Below, one piece after another: positions 1-39,360 of a stretch of 64,000 bases of DNA. The stretch spans positions 21,756,828 to 21,820,827 of the forward strand of contig NC_087076.1 in NCBI RefSeq assembly GCF_026151205.1, in the 5' to 3' direction. Below the pieces are notes generated by a model. It worked only from the letters and a program-made list of their open reading frames with translations, was not told the origin of the DNA and did not search any database. The DNA comes from Bolinopsis microptera. Lineage: Eukaryota > Ctenophora > Tentaculata > Lobata > Bolinopsidae. Numbering within the stretch: the first letter of the stretch is position 1; every line of letters starts with the position of its first letter. The position numbers were made by a program, and so were the translations under genes.

Positions 1-1194
1 AGCTCGTTTGGGCAGATAGAGTCGTACATTTTATCCCGAATTTTACTTCCCTTCACCTGTCCAGTTACAGAATGTAAAAATTTAGGTTTTATATTTGAGT
101 CAACAAACTCAATATTCCTTGAGTTAATAGTGGGGCAGTTATATCTCCGTATCCCCATGATAATGTTACAGTACTCAGTTTTGGAAATAGTATTTGGAGA
201 CAACTCCCACTTGTTAATGAACATATCGTAGTTAAGGATTGTACTTTGGTCTATAGAAAGAAAATCTGAGATGTAAAATATTCCCTTATCAATCAGATGA
301 TTGTTCCAAAGTTTGGCCCCGATGTCGGTTATTGCTTGGTTGTACCACACGCAGTGATCAATAGAACCCAAGGCTGCATTTACCGAACTTATCTTCCACT
401 CAGTGTAACAATTAAGGACGTCTTGAGTAAAATGGCAGTTGGTTTTAGCGAGACCGTTTTCTACGGAGATGGTGATATGGTCAGGAAATTTCAGCTGCAT
501 AATCATAATATCTTTCCAAGTGTGGTGAAAGGAATTATTTAGTAGCTTGGATATGAGGCTGGTTTTAAGACCTATAATAAAATCAGATAAATAAAAAAGT
601 CCCAGGCCTCCATGTTCCTTATTTCGGGTAATAATCTCACGTTTTACTTTATCGCGTTTGCAACCCCAAAGAAAATGGAAAATAGCCGTGTCAAAGATTT
701 TGATAAAGGAAGCATCCGGTCGAGGGAGAGGAGAAACAAGATATGTTATTTGGGAAAAGAGAAGGGTTTTAATGACTGTGCATTTACCCATCAGCGTCAG
801 ATCCCTCTTGCTCCATCGGTTTATCCAAGACTGAACCTTAATCAATTTATCATTATAATTACTGTTGACAATATCCATCAGTGAGCCATCGTTCATATAA
901 ACTATACCCAAAGCGGTGAAGTTATTTGTTATAAAATCATTGCCGTATAAACTTTGAAGGGATTCTAGTAGAGTTGTATTAAGACGAGCTCGACCTAAAG
1001 GAATACATCTAGTTTTGTCGATGTTAGCTTTACACCCCGAGCACTGAGCAAAAGTTCTGAGTTCTGTCATAACCGCCTCTACACTTTCAATTGAAGCTTT
1101 CAGAAACAGATCAGTGTCGTCTGCAAAGAGACTCTGTAAGATTTCCACACCTGATATGTTAAGACCCCTGATATTAGGATTAATCTGAATTTTA
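1..1194 (-). pseudogene. L1 ORF2 C-terminal portion (RT palm end and C-terminal domain)
   Basis: The minus strand stays in one frame from about 1194 to the window edge. It begins just before the catalytic FADD motif (codons at about 1127-1116, in the context SLFADDTDLF). Further on it reads the typical L1 post-RT region, including RWSKRDLTLMGK and EHGGLGLFYL, and it ends at the edge with MYDSICPNE. I spot-checked three positions (1127, 638, 59) and all lie in the same frame. It has no start of its own; it continues the ORF2 that begins at 6132 but in a different frame from the 1100-2077 segment, so the original gene has suffered an indel near 1200. Confidence 0.75.
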
Positions 1195-1980
1195 TTCGAG
1201 AAAGTTTAATAATGTATTCGCTGAAGCCCAATTTTTCAAGAGTACTGAAGACAAAGTTATGTTCTACCGAATCAAAACACTTTTCAAAATCAATCTGTAA
1301 AAGGAGGCCCTCTTGTTCCGTGTCGTTGTTAAATGATTCCAGAACCATTGACATGAGAATAAGATTATCTGCTGTACTCCTGCCCGCTTGAAAGCCTGAC
1401 TGGGTTTTGCTGATTATGCTAGGGATAGCCTTCATAATCCTATTTTTAGCTATATGTGTGAAGATTTTATAGTCAATGTTTAGCAGAGTAATAGGTCTCC
1501 AATTCTTTATGTAATTAAGTTCCACTGGGCTTTTTGGCTTGGGAATAAGAGTAAGAATACCTATTCTCTGCGAGGGCGACAAGCATCCCCTGTTAATAGA
1601 TTCTAAATAGGAGTTATACATGATCTGCCTGATATCCATCCAAAAAGTTTTGTAAAATTCAGCAGAAAGCCCGTCCCAACCTGGAGATTTATTGTTGGTT
1701 AACTTATTTACAATAGCATCCATTTCTTGCAACGTGATAGGCCCCTCCAGAGTTTCCGTAATTTCTTGTGGGATTTGCTTTAAATCGCTACTGGTTACAT
1801 AATTATCTATCTCAGTGGGAGATGGGTTAGTTGAGTTATACAGGTTCTGATAAAAGTTAACCACGTGACTGGAGATGTTTTCCTGGTCCGTGAGGTCATT
1901 GCCTTCGATGTCTATCAGTTTACTAATACTTTTTTTCTTGCCGTTTGATTTTTCCAGTCCAAAAAAGTATTTAGTCGAGC
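1100..1980 (-). pseudogene. L1 ORF2 reverse transcriptase fragment downstream of the insertion
   Basis: This is the middle part of ORF2. From the insertion boundary it reads KYFFGLEKSNGKKK, then the RT fingers and palm: NKSPGWDGLSAEFYKTFW, LIPKPKSP, NWRPITLLNIDYKIF, QSGFQAGRSTADN and QIDFEKCFDSVEH (motif A aspartate present). After GFSEYIIKLSRIKF the L1 frame is lost and the ORF ends at 1100 in out-of-frame sequence. Compared with other L1 RTs, the stretch that normally carries the PLSPYLF-type motif is missing, so several tens of codons were deleted before FADD. The first residues of the nominal ORF (from 2077) belong to the inserted element, not to the LINE. Confidence 0.85.
1973..1980. repeat. 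Target-site duplication of composite A, left copy
   Basis: AGTCGAGC, identical to 4933-4940. On the minus strand it encodes part of the L1 ORF2 motif that is interrupted, which shows that it is target sequence. Confidence 0.9.
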
Positions 1981-2104
1981 GGGGGGGTACCAATGGCATA
2001 GAATGGAGACAAATGGCATAAAATTCATCAAATGGCATAGAAATTTCATGGCATAAATGGAAATTTTGTTTGGCCAATTCTCCATTTATGCCAATTTATG
2101 CCAT
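1981..2104. repeat. Snap-back terminal repeat of composite A, left
   Basis: Contains four ATGGCATA words and ends in the inverted words TTATGCC..TTATGCCAT, so the unit folds on itself. It keeps the G7 terminus on its outer side but lacks a matching C-run on its inner side. It aligns in direct orientation with 4811-4932. Confidence 0.85.
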
Positions 2105-2300
2105 GAATTTAGGTCTTCATATTTGACCTTTAGGATGACTTTAAATTCGCAAATATTATTAGTACTTGAATAAGAGACATGTTCCATGCTTTATAACGCT
2201 TGGAATGATCTTTAAAGATTCATATGACAAATAAAGAAAATAGAAATGTATTATATCAAACATATACCAAACATTTGACTATTCAAGAAAAGAAAATTCG

Positions 2301-2518
2301 AAAGTAGGACCCTAGAGCGGAGTCAAATCGCCAGGGTAGGACTCTAGAGCGGAACCCCCTAACCGGACCCATACTACATACTATGAGGACCCTAGAGCGG
2401 AGTCAAATCGCCAAGGCCCAAGGTAGGATTCTAGAGCGGAACTCCCTTACCGGACCCATACTATGAAGACTCTAGAGCGGTACCCACATGCAAATTTTAG
2501 AGCGGTTAGAAATTTGAG
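2301..2518. repeat. Inner inverted repeat, left arm (inside composite A)
   Basis: About 218 bp built from repeated blocks (GACCCTAGAGCGGAGTC, CGGACCCATACTA, TTAGAGCGGTTAG). It is the approximate reverse complement of 3857-4053. Long, internally repetitive TIRs of this kind are known for MULE-type elements. The arm starts at AAAGTAGGACCC; I see no clear target duplication next to it. Confidence 0.8.
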
Positions 2519-2637
2519 AGTAAAGTCAGTTTTGAAGATTGAGCTATGTTTTTTAATCAATGATTAATAATAGTCGTCACATAATGATGATAGAATTGAT
2601 ACAACTTATTATACATTAATACTGCGAATCAAATATC

Positions 2638-3132
2638 TTATAATAGTTCACTCAGTTCCTCGACCATCACGTTCCTCAACATGTCAAGGTGGGAGAGTGA
2701 GACAATGTCATGATCGTCGTAGACTTTTACTAAATGTGCCAGTCGGCTGTCCTTGGTACGCTGACGGGCTCGTTTTGCAGGAGGAGCATCCCCGTAACAC
2801 TCCTTGAGCATCATCTCATCTGTAGTGGACTGTTCTATGTAGACGGCTTGAAGAAAGGTCCAGATATTTGGGTAAGAGTGTCCCAACATTGCTGCAAACT
2901 TTCTGTTAAAGGCCTCTGCGTAGTTGAAGTTGCAGGTAGTCCGGTCGACGAGGTTCCAGGATTGCGGAGGAAAGCGGGCAGGTTTGGTGCTACGAGCGGT
3001 GGAAACTCCCTGTACCCAATTCGTCATGAAGTAGTTAAGGAAGTCGTCGAGGCCAAGGTGGGAGGGTATAAGATCTAGGAGCTCCATGAAAGAAGGGAGA
3101 ACATCGTCCACTGGGAGAAAGGCAAGCTGCAT
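2638..3132 (-). pseudogene. MULE-type transposase, C-terminal fragment
   Basis: A 164-residue frame resembling the region downstream of the DDE core in animal MULE-domain transposases: LAFLPVDDVLPSFMELLDLI, then YFMTNWVQG, ARFPPQSWNLVDRTTCN, and a segment like the usual 'N..E.FN..F...LG..HP.IW.F' block (AEAFNRKFAAMLGHSYPNIW). No DDE catalytic core is present and a full MULE transposase is several times longer, so this cannot be an active enzyme. The PPAKRARQRTKD stretch looks like a nuclear targeting signal. It lies inside the inner inverted repeats, which supports assignment to a MULE. Recognition is by eye. Confidence 0.65.
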
Positions 3133-3856
3133 AGTGCATAAGTCTACGTATTCACACTCGAACAGGACCTGAAGTCCAGGAATTGGTAAGGGGGTCGTTA
3201 ATTCCTTCGTCGTAGTCCTTCTTCAGTCCGTTCTCCCGTACCCATCTCAGCTGTTCGTCCCCGGATGAAGACGGCCTTCTCAGGAAGAATTAAGTATTAA
3301 CTGTTACTCAGCATATTGTAGATAGTTGTAAAGAGGAGTAGGAATCGAATGTGATATACTAAACTAAATTCTCTGTGACATTTATACTGCACTATCGAAA
3401 TCACTAACAAGAACCGCTATGCGATGGGATCTGATCTGGAACATACCCTGTCACTAGACTGAACATGAGATACCCTTAGTAGGTGCTAAAGTGTCACGCG
3501 ATGAGATCCTCATTCCTAAATGATCTGCTTGAGTGCACGTACTTGGTCGGTATTTCGCTTAGCGAAATCACATCGACCAGTTCATAATTATACCTCTTTA
3601 TCAAAGAATCTTTTTGCATTTTAGAGTAGCATCAGGATATTTCAGTCAAATGGAAGAAGTTTATACCGAACAATTTTCTAACCACTAACGTATCTAAAAA
3701 TTACAATATGATATGATGTATAATATAAATAATCTAGGACAATTTTCTGCTTCAACAACTCCATGAATTATTCTAATCTCACTATTATAATAATCAATCA
3801 CGAGTTGTATCTAATCTGATTTCAATCTTCCGACCAAGTCCACTCTACAGTCCGAT
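3133..3856. other. Non-coding interior of the MULE-like element
   Basis: Between the ORF and the right inner arm. It contains short direct and inverted words such as GCGATGGGATC / GCGATGAGATCC (near 3421 and 3498). I find no ORF or known motif here. Confidence 0.4.
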
Positions 3857-4053
3857 CTCAAATTTCTAACCGCTCCAAAATTTACATGTGGGTACCGGCA
3901 CCGCTCTAGAGTCCTCACAGTATGGTTTCGGTAAGGGAGTTCCATCCTGGCGATTTGACTCCACTCTAGGGTCCTTATAGTATGGTTCCGGTAAGGGGGT
4001 TCCGCTTTAGATTCCTACCCTGGCGATTTGACTCCGCTCTAGGGTCCTACTTT
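3857..4053. repeat. Inner inverted repeat, right arm (inside composite A)
   Basis: Reverse-complement partner of 2301-2518, reading TCTAACCGCTC to GGGTCCTACTTT, with small indels between the arms. The MULE-like ORF lies between the two arms, so this pair may mark an older element captured inside the composite. Confidence 0.8.
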
Positions 4054-4810
4054 TGACCAAGTACGCCATACATGACAGTCCCCCGCTCTACAGTCCTACA
4101 GTCCAAATTGTGAGATGTTCAAAATCCTACAATGATTATACTAGATTAACGTTAATATAGAAAACTAATTAAGGAGTGCTATGTTGCCATGCAGCAGTGA
4201 ATATGAAGATATTTAAGCAATATATTATGTCATCATAATTTTTTATAATAGGAAGCAAGTATTTCAGGTCATTTGGTGAACTGTTATGTAATACTAATAT
4301 ACAGGTTCATCGAGATATCAATGAATATTATTTTTAAGAGGCTACCCATTCGAAACACAGATCATTATCAATCTTGTGAAAATGTTTAAATTTCAAAACA
4401 TTCTACATGAACACGGTCCCGACACGATACATCTGTACACATCATTAACAAATAATATTTTAATCGAGTTGGTAATGTTACAGTTTTCCATTGTTAATTT
4501 GGATATCCGATTGACTGGGAGCATTCAGTCGACTGTCCTCTCTGTTATACGGTGTGTAGCGTGTACTATGCCATACTGCCCGGTCACTTGTCCACAATCA
4601 ACCAAATCATCATATCATATTCATATTGATATACATTGAACGTAATTATAATCAATAATGCCCATTGCTAAGGATATTTTGAGGAATTTAATGGGTGAAA
4701 ATAGATGTTGTAGTACAATAAATAGAGATAAAGGTGGACAGTACTAGTGGGGTGCAGACAATTCGTTAAATTAAATTCTCAGTTCAAAGTTTTAAAATTT
4801 CATATTTCGA
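4054..4810. other. Composite A cargo with no recognised gene
   Basis: AT-rich sequence between the inner element and the right terminal repeat. An 87-codon plus-strand ORF at 4376-4639 shows no motif or coding bias that I recognise. Nothing else is supported. Confidence 0.4.
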
Positions 4811-4932
4811 ATGGCATAGAATGGAGACAAATGGCATAAAATTCATCAAATGGCATAGAAATTTCATGGCATAAATGGAAATTTTGTTTGGCCAATTCTC
4901 CATTATGCCATTTATGCCATTGGTACCCCCCC
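4811..4932. repeat. Snap-back terminal repeat of composite A, right
   Basis: A direct copy of 1993-2104, but it ends with CCATTGGTACCCCCCC on its outer side and has no G-run on its inner side. It is therefore the complementary half-intact copy to the left repeat. Confidence 0.85.
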
Positions 4933-4940
4933 AGTCGAGC
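4933..4940. repeat. Target-site duplication of composite A, right copy
   Basis: AGTCGAGC, matching 1973-1980. Deleting one copy plus the 2952-bp element restores the ORF2 frame. Confidence 0.9.
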
Positions 4941-6132
4941 GCTCCCCCTCCTCTGTCCACTGCACACGTGATCTAGTAATTGCACCTCTCACCTCCTGAT
5001 CTATAATATGATTTAAATCTAATTCTGCTTCAAATAATTTCTTCTGTAGTATCGTACAGTTTGTTAGGTTCGAATCTTTTTTACAATCTTCAATATCTTT
5101 TTTTAACTTTTCTTTTTTTACTATGATTTCTTTTTTTTTCTTTTTACCAAACGTCATTGCGAACTGTTTTATTTTGATTTTTATAACGTCCCAAAGACCC
5201 CCGTAAGAATCGAAGCTATCCTCTTTAGTATTGTCAATGATTTTCTTTATTTCGTTAATAAAATTTTGATCCAGGAGATGAGAGTTGTTAATTTTCCAAT
5301 ATCCTTTTCCGTGTGCAATAGTAGAGCCCTGGAGGGATAGCGAGATGTAGCTGTGATCAGATTTATAGCCATGACTTATTTCTGTATCACATACAGGTAG
5401 ATTGACTAGGCTATCTTGGATCAAGAAAAAATCTAATCTAGACTGAGTTTTGTACTTTTTGTTAAAATGAGTAAAAACCCGTGCCTCAGCACCTCTGTTA
5501 AGACGGAAAATATCACTAAACCCATAATCGGTAATGCAATCATTAATGAATTTCTGGCAGCGACTATTTGCATGGGTGGCGGACCCCCCCTGCTTATCCA
5601 ACATGTTGTTCAGAACTGTATTCCAGTCTCCAACAAAAATTATTTGATCATCTCGTGAACGACTGAGAGTTTCTAAAAATATGTTTTCAAGAAAAGACAC
5701 ATCGTCATTATTTGGGCAGTATACATTCACCAAACACAATTTGAGAGAGTCGTACTCTATTTCTACGAGGGTCGCGCGACCTTGGCTGATGCTACGATGG
5801 TTAATAATAGTGAGATTCGAAGCATCAGGTTTAACAAGTAGGGCGATACCGGTTGAGTTTGAAGTACCATGGTTAAAGATTATCTCCCCGTCCCAAGAAT
5901 TTTTCCACTCTCTCTCAACTTGAGGAGTTGAGTGTGTTTCTTGAAGACAAATAATTTTCTCAGGTTTATTTTTTAACCAGTTTAAGACAAGATTACGTTT
6001 AATCGGGTTTCCCATACCATTGCAGTTGAAAGAACCGATTTTTGGGCATGCCAACCCACTATTGCTGTTATTTTGCGGAGTCATTGTTAATCTGAAAAAT
6101 GCCCCATCCTTCCTTGGTGTAGTTCTTAACAC
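4941..6132 (-). pseudogene. L1 ORF2 N-terminal part: APE endonuclease
   Basis: The 5' part of ORF2, with an apurinic-endonuclease-like domain: GSFNCNGMGNPIKRN, ICLQETHSTP, GIALLVKP, FVGDWNTVLN, LDFFLIQD and the terminal YKSDHSYISL (catalytic SDH). The start may be at 6132, or more likely at the ATG near 6084, closer to the first APE strand. A Lys-rich linker follows (KKKKKEIIVKKEK). The frame ends in EEGERST, the first half of an L1 motif whose second half sits across the inserted element at 1980. Removing 2960 bp (element plus one target duplication) brings the two halves into one frame. Confidence 0.9.
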
Positions 6133-31746: not shown

Positions 31747-31953
31747 ATATCGGTACAAAGCAAACTATGCAATTGTCAAACTATAAGTTTCATGTTTGAA
31801 AAGCAATCTTCAGTGACATAATTAACATAAAAATGGCAAACATAATACAACACAGTGCTCCTTTATCAAATTTTATAATTAACAATTAACAATTACTCAA
31901 TACTACTAAACCTATATAAATAACTACAAATCCTAATAACTAATAAATACTAA

Positions 31954-32256
31954 CTAAATATGTCTAACTAAGAATTTCCTAGAGTGCCTACATTTAGAAA
32001 TAATTTCTGATCTTTTATTAATAATGCCTGGGGTTTTAAGTATGTATAGTTTCTCGTCTAAGCAGAGGCCACAATGCCCCGCTCCAGCCTTATATTTTTT
32101 CGATTTAGTAATAATCTTCCAGTCTATGCTATATTCAATCATCTTCTCCTTGAGGTCCCATATCAATTTTGATAACTCGGTACTCAGTCTGTGCTTAGAA
32201 TTCTTAAAACTTTGTCGATGATTGTACCACCGTGTCTTAAAACTGTTTTCAGTCAA
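31954..32256 (-). pseudogene. Penelope-like element, GIY-YIG endonuclease C-terminus (left arm)
   Basis: 100 codons. Just upstream the frame reads TAYIGLTENSFKTRWYNH, which is the YIG half of a GIY-YIG domain as found at the C-terminus of Penelope-like retroelements. It is followed by STELSKLIWDLKEK (catalytic Glu region), IDWKIITKSKKY, the CGLCLDEKLYIL motif and INKRSEIISKCRHSRKF, the usual end of the protein. The reverse transcriptase and the GIY half are absent, so this is a 5'-truncated copy. Confidence 0.85.
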
Positions 32257-32318
32257 TCCAATATAGGCCGTTTCCTTGTTAGGACAAGGAAACGGCCAAG
32301 GAAACGGCCTATATTGGA

Positions 32319-32621
32319 TTGACTGAAAACAGTTTTAAGACACGGTGGTACAATCATCGACAAAGTTTTAAGAATTCTAAGCACAGACTGAGTACCGAGT
32401 TATCAAAATTGATATGGGACCTCAAGGAGAAGATGATTGAATATAGCATAGACTGGAAGATTATTACTAAATCGAAAAAATATAAGGCTGGAGCGGGGCA
32501 TTGTGGCCTCTGCTTAGACGAGAAACTATACATACTTAAAACCCCAGGCATTATTAATAAAAGATCAGAAATTATTTCTAAATGTAGGCACTCTAGGAAA
32601 TTCTTAGTTAGACATATTTAG
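32319..32621 (+). pseudogene. Penelope-like element, GIY-YIG endonuclease C-terminus (right arm)
   Basis: Identical in sequence to the peptide at 31954-32256 but on the plus strand. The conserved frame upstream (AYIGLTEN) begins at the palindrome centre, so both copies are truncated at the same position and face each other head to head. Confidence 0.85.
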
Positions 32622-32828
32622 TTAGTATTTATTAGTTATTAGGATTTGTAGTTATTTATATAGGTTTAGTAGTATTGAGTAATTGTTAATTGTTAATTAT
32701 AAAATTTGATAAAGGAGCACTGTGTTGTATTATGTTTGCCATTTTTATGTTAATTATGTCACTGAAGATTGCTTTTCAAACATGAAACTTATAGTTTGAC
32801 AATTGCATAGTTTGCTTTGTACCGATAT

Positions 32829-35810: not shown

Positions 35811-35818
35811 TATTTTGG
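35811..35818. repeat. Target-site duplication of composite B, left
   Basis: TATTTTGG, identical to 39353-39360. Confidence 0.8.
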
Positions 35819-35916
35819 GGGGGGTGTAACCCAAAAAAACCCAAAAATACCCAATCCCAGTATTACCTTTTTCAGGGTAGGAGTTGGGTTTTTTTGGGTT
35901 TTTTACAAATTTTTCA
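35819..35916. repeat. Snap-back terminal repeat of composite B, left
   Basis: Runs from the G run through AACCCAAAAAAACCC and the central CAATCCCAGTATTACC to TTGGGTTTTTTTGGGTT. It folds on itself. The inner end lacks the ACACACCC terminus. Confidence 0.85.
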
Positions 35917-36359
35917 TTTGAAGGAAATAAAATCATGTAGGCACCTAGCAAAACAATTATCAGTACAACATCACTGTTGTGGTTCATCACTACAACATCA
36001 CAGTAGATATAATCGCTCAGAAGAAGTTGGCCATCCAGATATGATATCAGCCGTATGTAATTGCTCACTTCGATGGCCATGGCAAATTGAGTTAGTAGGG
36101 ACGCAACTCACTGATGACCCGCAACCGGTACGAGAGGAATAAAGCCTTTCTTCTCATCTTCACGATCTCTGTTTCCGTTTTCCTGATCATCCGCTGAACG
36201 AGAAACCATGCTCTATCTCCAACTGAAAGAATCTTGTAGTTACCATCAGCTGCATGATCACATGTGATATTAAGTGATATCTTCGCCTGTTTATGGCCCT
36301 GGAGTCGCTAAAATCTTGACTGGGATGGCATTCGATCTCGCCCTCCATTGAGGCAAACC
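35917..36359. other. Composite B cargo, unassigned
   Basis: On the minus strand the 36190-36110 part reads a charged phrase (SADDQENGNRDREDEKKGF), possibly the remnant of a coding exon captured by the element. No family is recognised. Confidence 0.35.
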
Positions 36360-36872
36360 TCAATCATGATGCAGAGCATCACCATACACAGTTACTATTT
36401 TCGCCCATTCCTCTGATGAGTCAATATCCTCCACTTCCTCTTCGTTATCATCTGTTTCCGCTTCGTCACTCTCTGCTCCGTCAGAAGATGGTTGGAAAGC
36501 CTCTCCTTCAAAGTTACAGTGTTCTTGAGTGAGTTCTCTACCCCTTGAGACTCCCTTCTTCATAGCTTGGAACAATCTTGGGATTGAAGTATCTTTACTT
36601 CAAAATAGTTTCTCTGCTTTCGGATGCGGTATAACAAGCTTGTTGCGAGAGTGGGCAACTGTTACAGGGATCAAACTTTTGCCGAGTGCATCAAGCTCGA
36701 GGGAACGGTTTGATTTGCCCATGCCAACCAACATATCCTTAGAACACAGATTAGTTCTAATGCCTGCATGGAGGCCTATGCGCAGGAAGGCATAAAGTTT
36801 GCTCGCAGGCATCGGATGTAAACAGCCAGGGCATAAAGTGTTGATAACTGTTGTCAGCTGTTATACTGAGAA
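36360..36872 (-). pseudogene. ORF of unknown family in composite B, one internal stop
   Basis: A minus-strand frame from about 36872 to a stop at 36360 is interrupted only by TGA at 36602-36600. It reads CPGCLHPMPASKLYAFLRIG, NLCSKDMLVGMGKSNRSLEL and SRNKLVIPHPKAEKLF, then after the stop SIPRLFQAMKKGVSRGRE and a strongly acidic tail (ESDEAETDDNEEEVEDID). The acidic end and the CPGC motif suggest a nuclear protein. It could be the C-terminal part of the element's own lost gene or a captured host fragment. I do not recognise it, and no start codon or upstream exon is evident. Confidence 0.4.
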
Positions 36873-37099
36873 TGCACAGCATCAGACCATCGACTGTAAT
36901 AATCGCATCATCAACATTTTTACAGACGTAGGCAGGTGGTCTTTCAATGGCTGTGTGAAGCTTAGGTGGCCCAAGGCGTCACCGCTGGATAGAACCTGGG
37001 TGGAAGCCCTGGTCTGATGTGAGGCTCCCGAACTTTGAAAAGGGGTATCCTGCTGGTGCCCTCTTCCAGACACTCATCGGACAGCATTATAAAAGCCAC

Positions 37100-38970
37100 T
37101 ACCTCCGCGTGGTGAAGACTGGATACTGGACAGGGGGTCCAGGCTAAAGGCAGGACGGTCGACGGGAGACATTGAGCCCTGGAAGTTCAATAATTTGATC
37201 TATTGACTCCTTAACTCTTGGTCTACAAGAGGCTTTGAGACTCGTAAATCTTTACTGTGGATTTCACAGTAACTAAAGAGGTGTTGGCTGTTACCCTGTT
37301 CAACCTAGTCTACTATGACCCAGCTAGACTGGACCACACTCTGGTAGTCAGGATACGGCTCCCTATGCCCGGGGTACCGGGTAACGAGGTAGTCAGGGGA
37401 AGGGTTAGTCCCCGCTAAAGTGTAGCTCTGCTCTCACTCTAACCTCCTTACGCTTTGGGATAAAATCGGAAAGTCCCACACTGGAGCAGGTGACGATTGG
37501 GTAAGGATTACAACTGATGCTGTTGGGTAGAAAAAGGAAGTGTCACATTTGTCTTGTATAGCATATATGTTCGTGCAATTACATGCTCAAGATACCCAAG
37601 ATATTATGGTGAGAGTTAAATATGGCTATTGTTCAAGCGGATGCCCTTAACCTTTTAGTGGCGCAAGAGTTAAGAATACAATCCACTGCCAATGTGCAGG
37701 GGACTGCACAGAATTGTGAGCCAACTGAAAAGTCAAGATGAAGTTTATCAACAGCTTAAGGGTTAAAGCCCCTTATTTTTCTAGTGGAAGTGGTTTCCGG
37801 GGTAATTACACTGCTATTACAGAAGCTGATGACTCGGTCTCCACAACACGACAACCTATTTCTACAGAAAGTCAAACAAGAAAACATCAAAAAAATATGA
37901 ACATCAATTGCATTGTATCATGTAAAAGGGCTGCTCAGGTTGGCACGTTTAACATAAGAACAGCCAGAGAACAGCACAAACGCATCGAACTTGAAGAACT
38001 ATTTTCTCGAAGCAAGCTGCACATCCTTGCCCTGCAAGATTCGAACATCGGGTAGTGCATGCTGATTGCTGAGAATACCAGAATAGAAAAGATGAACAAA
38101 GGGATTCATCCAGTGATCTCATCTGCGTGGAGAAACGCAGCTGGCGCTTCTAATGGGAGAGTAGGAATCATCTTGACGAGGACAGCATATGAGGCTATAA
38201 GTCTTATAAAGTTATAAAATCTTACAGCGCAAGGATCCTCACCATGTCTCTTAATGGAAAGCCCAGGCTCACTGTCATCACATGCTACAGTCCTACAGAA
38301 GCCTCATCTGATGAGGAGGCAGGAAATCTCTTTTGTCTAAAACCAAGGATCTTACAGTTAATTTAGTAGGAGAGGAGCCACACACAATAATTTCTAAGGA
38401 CGGACATGCCTTAGAAGAAGTTGAGGATTTTAGTACAACGGAGCACGACTTTAGGTTACGCAAGGCCAAGGCATGGGCTGCCTACCACAAAATGTAGGCT
38501 ATATGGAGGTCCAATTTGCGCCGAGATTTAAAGATCCGTCTGTTCAAGCTACGGTTGAATCAATCTTCCTGTATGGAACGAAAACGTGGACAATAACAGA
38601 ATCTTTGAAGAAAAGAATAGACGGATGTTACAGTAGAATGCTTCGGATGGCCCTAAACGTGGACTGGAGGGGACATCGCACCAACAAGGAGGTCTTTGGA
38701 TCACTCCCAAGAGTTATTTCGAAGATACAGGCCAGAAGAATGAGGTTGGCTGGGCACATCCAGCGACATGATGACCTGGCAGCACACCAACTTCTCCTTT
38801 GGGAACCTAGGGAGGGGTAGACCACCGCTCACCTTCGCCGATAACCTAATAAGTGACTCTGGACTCAAGAACACTGGGGAGATTAAGGAGCTTATGGCGG
38901 ACAGAAAGCTTTGGAGACACATCATCGAGAGTCGGACTCTGAAGCCGACTGAAGTAATTTAAGTCATGTG
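37100..38970 (+). pseudogene. RTE-like LINE copy with internal deletion
   Basis: A plus-strand LINE remnant with a GC-richer 5' leader (about 37100-37740). It includes an APE start (QVGTFNIRTAREQHKRIELE, then SAWRNAAGASNGRVGI and RLTVITCYSPTEASSDE, spread over several frames). After a deletion of the RT core, the 3' part reads AYHKM, then RLFKATVESIFLYGTKTWTI, LKKRIDGCYSRMLRMALNVD, RRMRLAGHIQRHDDLA and, after one more frameshift, RGRPPLTFADNLI..ELMADRKLW. These are typical of RTE-type 'endonuclease-reverse transcriptase' proteins. No YxDD motif remains, so the copy is inactive. It lies in antisense to the tubulin gene. Confidence 0.75.
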
Positions 38971-39248
38971 CTTTGACTTGCCTTGACCTTCGTCATAGCC
39001 TCCTTCCATGACAGGAGAACACATTTGCCGCATTTCGCACATTTCCACTTTGTGCATTCATATGGATTATATCTCGATGAACGAGACATCCTGTTTGCTA
39101 TCGTGATAACATACTATCAATATAAACACACTTATATACTATGTAAACTATCTATTAAGTTAAGACATGAGAACAACACGTAGGTAAGACTCAGTGGGAA
39201 ATAATTCACATTCAATACAATTAATGAAATGGCTAGAATTTTGTTGTT

Positions 39249-39352
39249 TAAAAAACCCAAAAAAACCCAAAAAAACCCAATCCCAGTATTACCTTTTCTT
39301 GGGTAGGAGTTGGGTTTTTTTGGGTTACACACCCCCCCCCCCCCCCCCCCCC
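39249..39352. repeat. Snap-back terminal repeat of composite B, right
   Basis: A direct-orientation copy of the left repeat (same CAATCCCAGTATTACC centre), but it keeps the outer GGGTTACACACCC terminus and lacks the G-run end on its inner side. Confidence 0.85.
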
Positions 39353-39360
39353 TATTTTGG
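39353..39360. repeat. Target-site duplication of composite B, right
   Basis: TATTTTGG directly after the C21 run. Confidence 0.8.

Follow-up and report, generated by a model that had tools for sequence, protein, structure and literature searches.

What kind of mobile DNA begins with a run of Gs, ends with a run of Cs, and carries the same hairpin in the same orientation just inside both ends? The question is raised by element B, 3536 bp long, at positions 35817-39352 (plus strand) of a 64,000-nucleotide stretch of the ctenophore Bolinopsis microptera genome (NC_087076.1, 21,756,828 to 21,820,827; hereafter the window). An earlier note, made from the letters of the window alone, had read B as a composite in which hairpin-forming miniature inverted-repeat transposable elements (MITEs) move the DNA between them. 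Here, genome-wide comparisons were used to show that B is mobile and one copy of a repeat family. On sequence evidence, B is very probably a transposase-deficient copy from a lineage of cut-and-paste DNA transposons of the DDE (Asp-Asp-Glu) type, whose superfamily is unsettled.

Ends, spacing and duplications of the B family

The G-run start and C21 end described previously were both found, as G8 at 35817-35824 and C21 at 39332-39352. The outer ends form a 28-nt inverted repeat in which 35817-35844 is 96% complementary to 39310-39337, as is expected of the terminal inverted repeats of class II DDE transposons; the right repeat, with its C-run, spans 39310-39352. Just inside lie two subterminal hairpins of 73 nt, at 35828-35900 and 39254-39326, which are 95% identical and in direct orientation, and thus correspond to the two snap-back repeats of the earlier note, including the absence of an inner G/C terminus from each. 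The left one contains 10-bp repeat units. Both self-fold better than all 200 of their shuffles (z -4.27 and -3.72). Six matches to AACCCAAAAAAACCCAA were counted in the window, where 0.05 would be expected, and none of 100 shuffles contained as many. At the flanks, TATTTTGG occurs at 35811-35818 and again at 39353-39360, which had been taken as an 8-bp duplication within an element spanning 35811-39360. The match and the anatomy are real, but TATTTTGG is TATTTT followed by two Gs that can belong to the G-run. With both runs excluded from the count (strict length), the duplication is 6 bp (TATTTT at 35811-35816 and 39353-39358), and B begins at 35817, TATTTT being flank.

A 24-base B terminus matched 146 times genome-wide and its control not at all, as expected of a repeat family. 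The left 120 bp matched 42 places (40 of 156 candidates scored) and the right end gave 40 matches (40 of 160 candidates scored). Pairing of termini drew on 100 of the 146 pattern matches and the 40 scored candidates per end query, and the resulting 72 left and 62 right ends contained at least 57 left/right pairs within 15 kb. Among the matches listed, paired ends lay 1.9-8.8 kb apart (median 3341 bp), none were MITE-sized, and 15 left and 6 right ends were unpaired. The first ~390 bp of 24 copies differed by a median of 1.5% (276 pairs, range 0-7.8%), and one copy, L012, was 96-98% identical to B across the element. In all 24 copies the hairpin loop was forward at both ends and the layout without inner termini was constant.

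Duplications were similarly consistent, with strict lengths of 6 bp in 15 copies, 5 in five, 7 in two, and 4 and 3 in one each. A duplication of at least 5 bp was found in 22 of 24 copies compared to 10 of 552 mismatched left/right flank pairs, and the near-fixed length (5-7 bp in 22 of 24) is that of DNA transposons with terminal inverted repeats. For copy L010 an empty site was also identified, as a repeat nested in copy L015 matches both L010 flanks with a 7-bp overlap. Run lengths were more variable, with G-runs of 8-25 (commonest 8) and C-runs of 6-34 (commonest 9), and the long runs may reflect later expansion by slippage.

Two B copies of 3262 and 3260 bp lie head to tail on C8 (6259510-6266031). 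Aligned to each other they show no mismatch and 4 gap columns, and the nearest other copy compared is 98.6% identical. Their junction reads C8G5 with no target bases inside, and a single 6-bp duplication (AAAACT) flanks the pair; no other such case was seen among the 100 terminus positions listed. Because unequal crossover should leave target bases between copies, the dimer is most simply read, in biological terms, as a hint of a joined-end intermediate. Assembly joins at homopolymers are an alternative, as long runs of G or C are difficult to sequence and this dimer could be an assembly product; given flank-matched duplications in 22 of 24 copies across several contigs and one empty site, we consider such an artefact extremely unlikely.

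The cargo of B and a relative carrying a transposase-like gene

The cargo had been described as a broken long interspersed nuclear element (LINE) plus an unknown open reading frame. LINE-like debris is indeed present on the plus strand, as a fragment of an endonuclease start (37738-38055) and one from after the reverse transcriptase core (38473-38820), both of which we presume to be LINE-derived. Pfam gave no support for either in the window copy; for the endonuclease-start fragment, the L015 frame scored E=0.026 with Exo_endo_phos, short of the cut-off. The unknown frame is a decayed remnant, from the C-terminal part, of a minus-strand transposase-like gene (36020-36924); its frame is broken and it is joined to the LINE-like debris. 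This region was matched by tblastn with the open reading frames of a relative, L074, in four segments (36924-36799, 74%; 36800-36540, 79%; 36563-36363, 87%; 36364-36020, 68%), and also by the protein of a second family, C, introduced below. Long open frames elsewhere matched the left-half minus-strand frame of B (L031:4554-5066) at ~30-45% identity.

L074 carries B's own termini and a 6-bp duplication, the latter weakened as evidence by the tandem repeat in which L074 sits. Its identity to the left and right parts of B is 92-93%, and it holds more of the transposase-like gene than the window copy does, in open reading frames of 306 aa and 201 aa. The search for an autonomous partner proposed in the earlier note gave a relative with B termini and a transposase-like gene, but one whose gene is scattered over several frames. 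About 1 kb of the L074 middle is missing from B, and ~2 kb of other sequence is in its place. Based on this comparison, B looks like an L074-like transposon in which the middle of the gene was lost and LINE-like debris taken up. All 19 other copies that were compared with L018 match the right 0.88 kb, including the LINE-like frame, so the cargo belongs to the B family.

The LINE-like fragments and the variable runs (8-25 G, 6-34 C) would also suit a retroelement inserted by LINE machinery, with non-templated G and C runs. That origin has next to no probability in our judgment, as the duplications are short and near-constant, inverted G/C termini are present at both ends, and the gene of the related families C, D and E is homologous to the non-LINE part of B.

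Candidates for an autonomous B were rejected among the longest copies (L015, L018, L019, L020 and L028-L031), where the added length resembled nested insertions or a rearrangement and not a transposase of B, and among the unpaired left ends, 10 of 15 of which were fetched and all 10 of which contained B interior. Termini with a different continuation gave five pattern matches, and the control likewise five. Several inserts within B copies were recorded on their own account: a FLYWCH zinc finger (Pfam E 5.1e-10) at 3284-3589 of L018; a long gag/pol-like frame at 1927-5693 of L029, which we take by its look to be a long terminal repeat retrotransposon; and a 418-aa frame on the minus strand at 3616-4872 of L015 that looks reverse-transcriptase-like and had no Pfam match.

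Families sharing the end design and the transposase-like protein

Five of the loci whose long open frames matched the B frame (L062-L066) belong to a second family, C, whose elements have G/C runs and one hairpin repeated at the two ends. Searches with the family C protein reached families D (L067-L069, L072 and L073) and E (L070), and those with the family E protein reached G (L071) and L074. As judged from their sequences, C, D and E share with B both the protein and the end design, and G probably does as well; the earlier suggestion of a class of such elements is in this respect upheld. This design combines G/C runs with subterminal units of 10 bp and a hairpin that recurs, directly oriented, at both ends. 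When one copy per family was analyzed, the best autocorrelation lag (range 5-20) was 10 at all 10 ends of B, C, D, E and G, and the hairpins of C, D, E and G were likewise direct and without inner termini, while their end sequences were unrelated to those of B. Strict duplications were 6 and 7 bp in C, 8, 8, 8 and 7 bp in D, and 6 bp in E. As 10 bp corresponds to one helical turn, the units may be phased binding units. Inside the family C loci, a long degenerate CTCCTCC-rich tandem repeat lies directly upstream of the gene, which makes nucleotide comparison there uninformative. Second open frames were seen beside the transposase-like gene at 399-1169 of L071, which had no Pfam match, and at 1095-1766 (minus strand) of L070.

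These families also bear on the composite explanation, under which two hairpin MITEs would flank and mobilize foreign DNA. It draws on the near identity of two direct hairpins that each have an outer terminus and no inner one. However, the same layout is constant in 24 of 24 B copies and recurs in C, D, E and G despite unrelated end sequences, so we regard the hairpins as transposon ends and not as captured MITEs. In addition, no terminus pair closer than 1.9 kb was found among the matches listed (solo hairpins being judged via terminus spacing), and the family-wide cargo includes a transposase-like gene homologous to the gene of the other families. Movement of the intervening DNA by hairpin MITEs is therefore very unlikely, though less so than the retroelement or artefact explanations.

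L071 holds an open frame of 762 aa (1657-3945), which has an N-terminal Cys-rich stretch. An alignment provides a candidate catalytic set of D297, D433/434 and E659, with a DxxH motif at D482xxH485; at the DxxH position the homologues read QDPLH, SDALH, QDVPH and QDICH (assigned by eye). In the working we propose, B would move by means of a transposase supplied in trans from elsewhere in the genome, which would bind the helically phased 10-bp units of the hairpins and cut at the ends of the G/C runs. Joining of the ends to target strands with a 6-bp stagger would then produce the 6-bp duplication. The transposase gene of B would at some point have lost its middle as ~2 kb including LINE-like debris entered, and the resulting chimera would have multiplied through the genome.

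Several observations weigh against this interpretation of B as a transposase-deficient DDE transposon. No intact transposase was found in any element with B's own termini, and the catalytic residues were assigned by eye in an alignment of 25% mean identity. No homologue scanned matched Pfam above the cut-off, the weak hits below it being mutually unrelated; none of three proteins compared with NCBIfam had a relevant match; and no sequence relative was found in PDB, a profile search returning only unrelated chains (E 0.31 or worse). Among the 24 B copies, no convincing duplication was found in L021 and L028, and family G showed no duplication and only GG at its left end. In one copy per family, the direct end-to-end match outscored the inverted one in all six families (A-E and G), with a narrow margin in C (50 versus 46), which is unusual for an element with terminal inverted repeats.

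Element A of the window (1981-4932, plus strand), which had been assigned the same design, has G7 and C7 ends, direct-orientation hairpins and an 8-bp duplication, AGTCGAGC. Ten copies were fetched and both ends were seen in three besides the window copy; the duplication was 8 bp in two of these and strictly 7 in the third. The anatomy is similar to that of B, but an 8-bp duplication is no common trait, as A has 8 bp and B has 6 bp, and no transposase link was found for A: its 164-aa frame had no Pfam match, and none of the homologue proteins used matched A. Its autocorrelation lags were 20 and 9, unlike the 10 of the other families. A and B are thus alike only in their G-run and direct-hairpin look. 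Minus-strand LINE frames adjoin A at 1100-2077 (RVT_1, E 4.6e-19) and 4912-6132 (Exo_endo_phos, E 2.8e-12), and A seems to have inserted within that LINE, between its reverse transcriptase and endonuclease frames.

A minus-strand tubulin gene carries B in one of its introns. Two exons upstream matched Tubulin in Pfam, and the final two coding segments, around B, presumably encode an alpha-tubulin C-terminus to judge by their translations. Elsewhere in the window, an inverted repeat at 31747-32828 has 532-nt arms that are 100% complementary around an 18-nt spacer, and is either a recent palindrome or an assembly artefact.

Overall, the oddity of one window leads to an animal-type DNA transposon lineage whose protein went unrecognized in the curated libraries searched. 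A same-orientation hairpin at both ends, inside inverted outer ends, is not predicted by ordinary models of terminal inverted repeats, and single-copy reading makes such elements resemble composite MITE pairs. The abutted dimer turns the use of joined ends by a eukaryotic DDE element into a testable question.

Comparison with known transposons

We see an even chance that this lineage, instead of standing apart, branched off from one of the known DxxH superfamilies (P, MuDR, hAT, Kolobok or Dada) and diverged, with the same working. This is consistent with the motifs at the DxxH position of the homologues and with duplications of 6-8 bp, which fall within the 4-10 bp given for these superfamilies. 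Against it stands the lack of any Pfam or NCBIfam model above cut-off and of a PDB relative by sequence; moreover, Kolobok duplicates TTAA, and Dada, which has no terminal inverted repeats, is found in small RNA genes. A genome search with the P-type model PF21787 gave nothing, but its controls gave no match either, and the MULE transposase model gave no Pfam match above cut-off, which highly diverged members might escape. hAT elements produce 8-bp duplications; most B copies (15 of 24) have 6 bp, though 8 bp was found in three of four family D cases. Less probably, it is an undescribed DxxH-type DDE lineage, perhaps a superfamily, defined by G/C-run termini, direct hairpins of 10-bp units at both ends and 6-8-bp duplications, whose members could move by way of joined ends (a circle or a concatemer), as the C8 dimer suggests. 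Searches of an open-access library turned up no account of such ends, although they may be listed in Repbase or Dfam.

IS3EU/GingerRoot elements resemble B in their 6-bp duplications but have TA..TA (or TG..CA) termini (PMC10045372), and IS3EU was rejected as the termini here are G-run..C-run and the protein carries DxxH. Dada shares with the elements here its 6-7-bp duplications, a DxxH motif and zinc fingers (PMC3706591), the strict lengths being 6-7 bp in B, C and E (in D, 8 in three of four and 7 in one). Dada is, however, described as lacking terminal inverted repeats and inserting into small nuclear RNA and transfer RNA genes (PMC3706591). It was rejected on the inverted G/C termini of B and families C, D and E, and the targets here are dispersed, with the window copy in a tubulin intron and L010 in a dispersed repeat.

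KolobokP shares the composite-like look, with terminal direct repeats around a DDD/E transposase gene, membership of the DxxH clade, and multimers (PMC9587614), and the C/DxxH motif expected of Kolobok was seen by eye in our alignment. Its direct repeats are ~450 or 660 bp long, bear terminal inverted repeats themselves and often occur solo, and duplications are TTAA or 3-5 bp (PMC9587614). Here, by contrast, the hairpins are ~75-100 bp without inner termini and the duplications 6-8 bp, so B does not have the long terminal direct repeats of KolobokP, and the TTAA duplication of Kolobok is absent from the B flanks. Foldback-type elements and Galileo are alike in having ends of repeated units that fold back, and the Galileo repeats contain several transposase binding sites (PMC3688188). 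Galileo ends are inverted repeats of 0.5-1.2 kb served by a P-type transposase (PMC3688188), whereas the ends described here are short, start with a G-run, and carry their hairpins in direct orientation.
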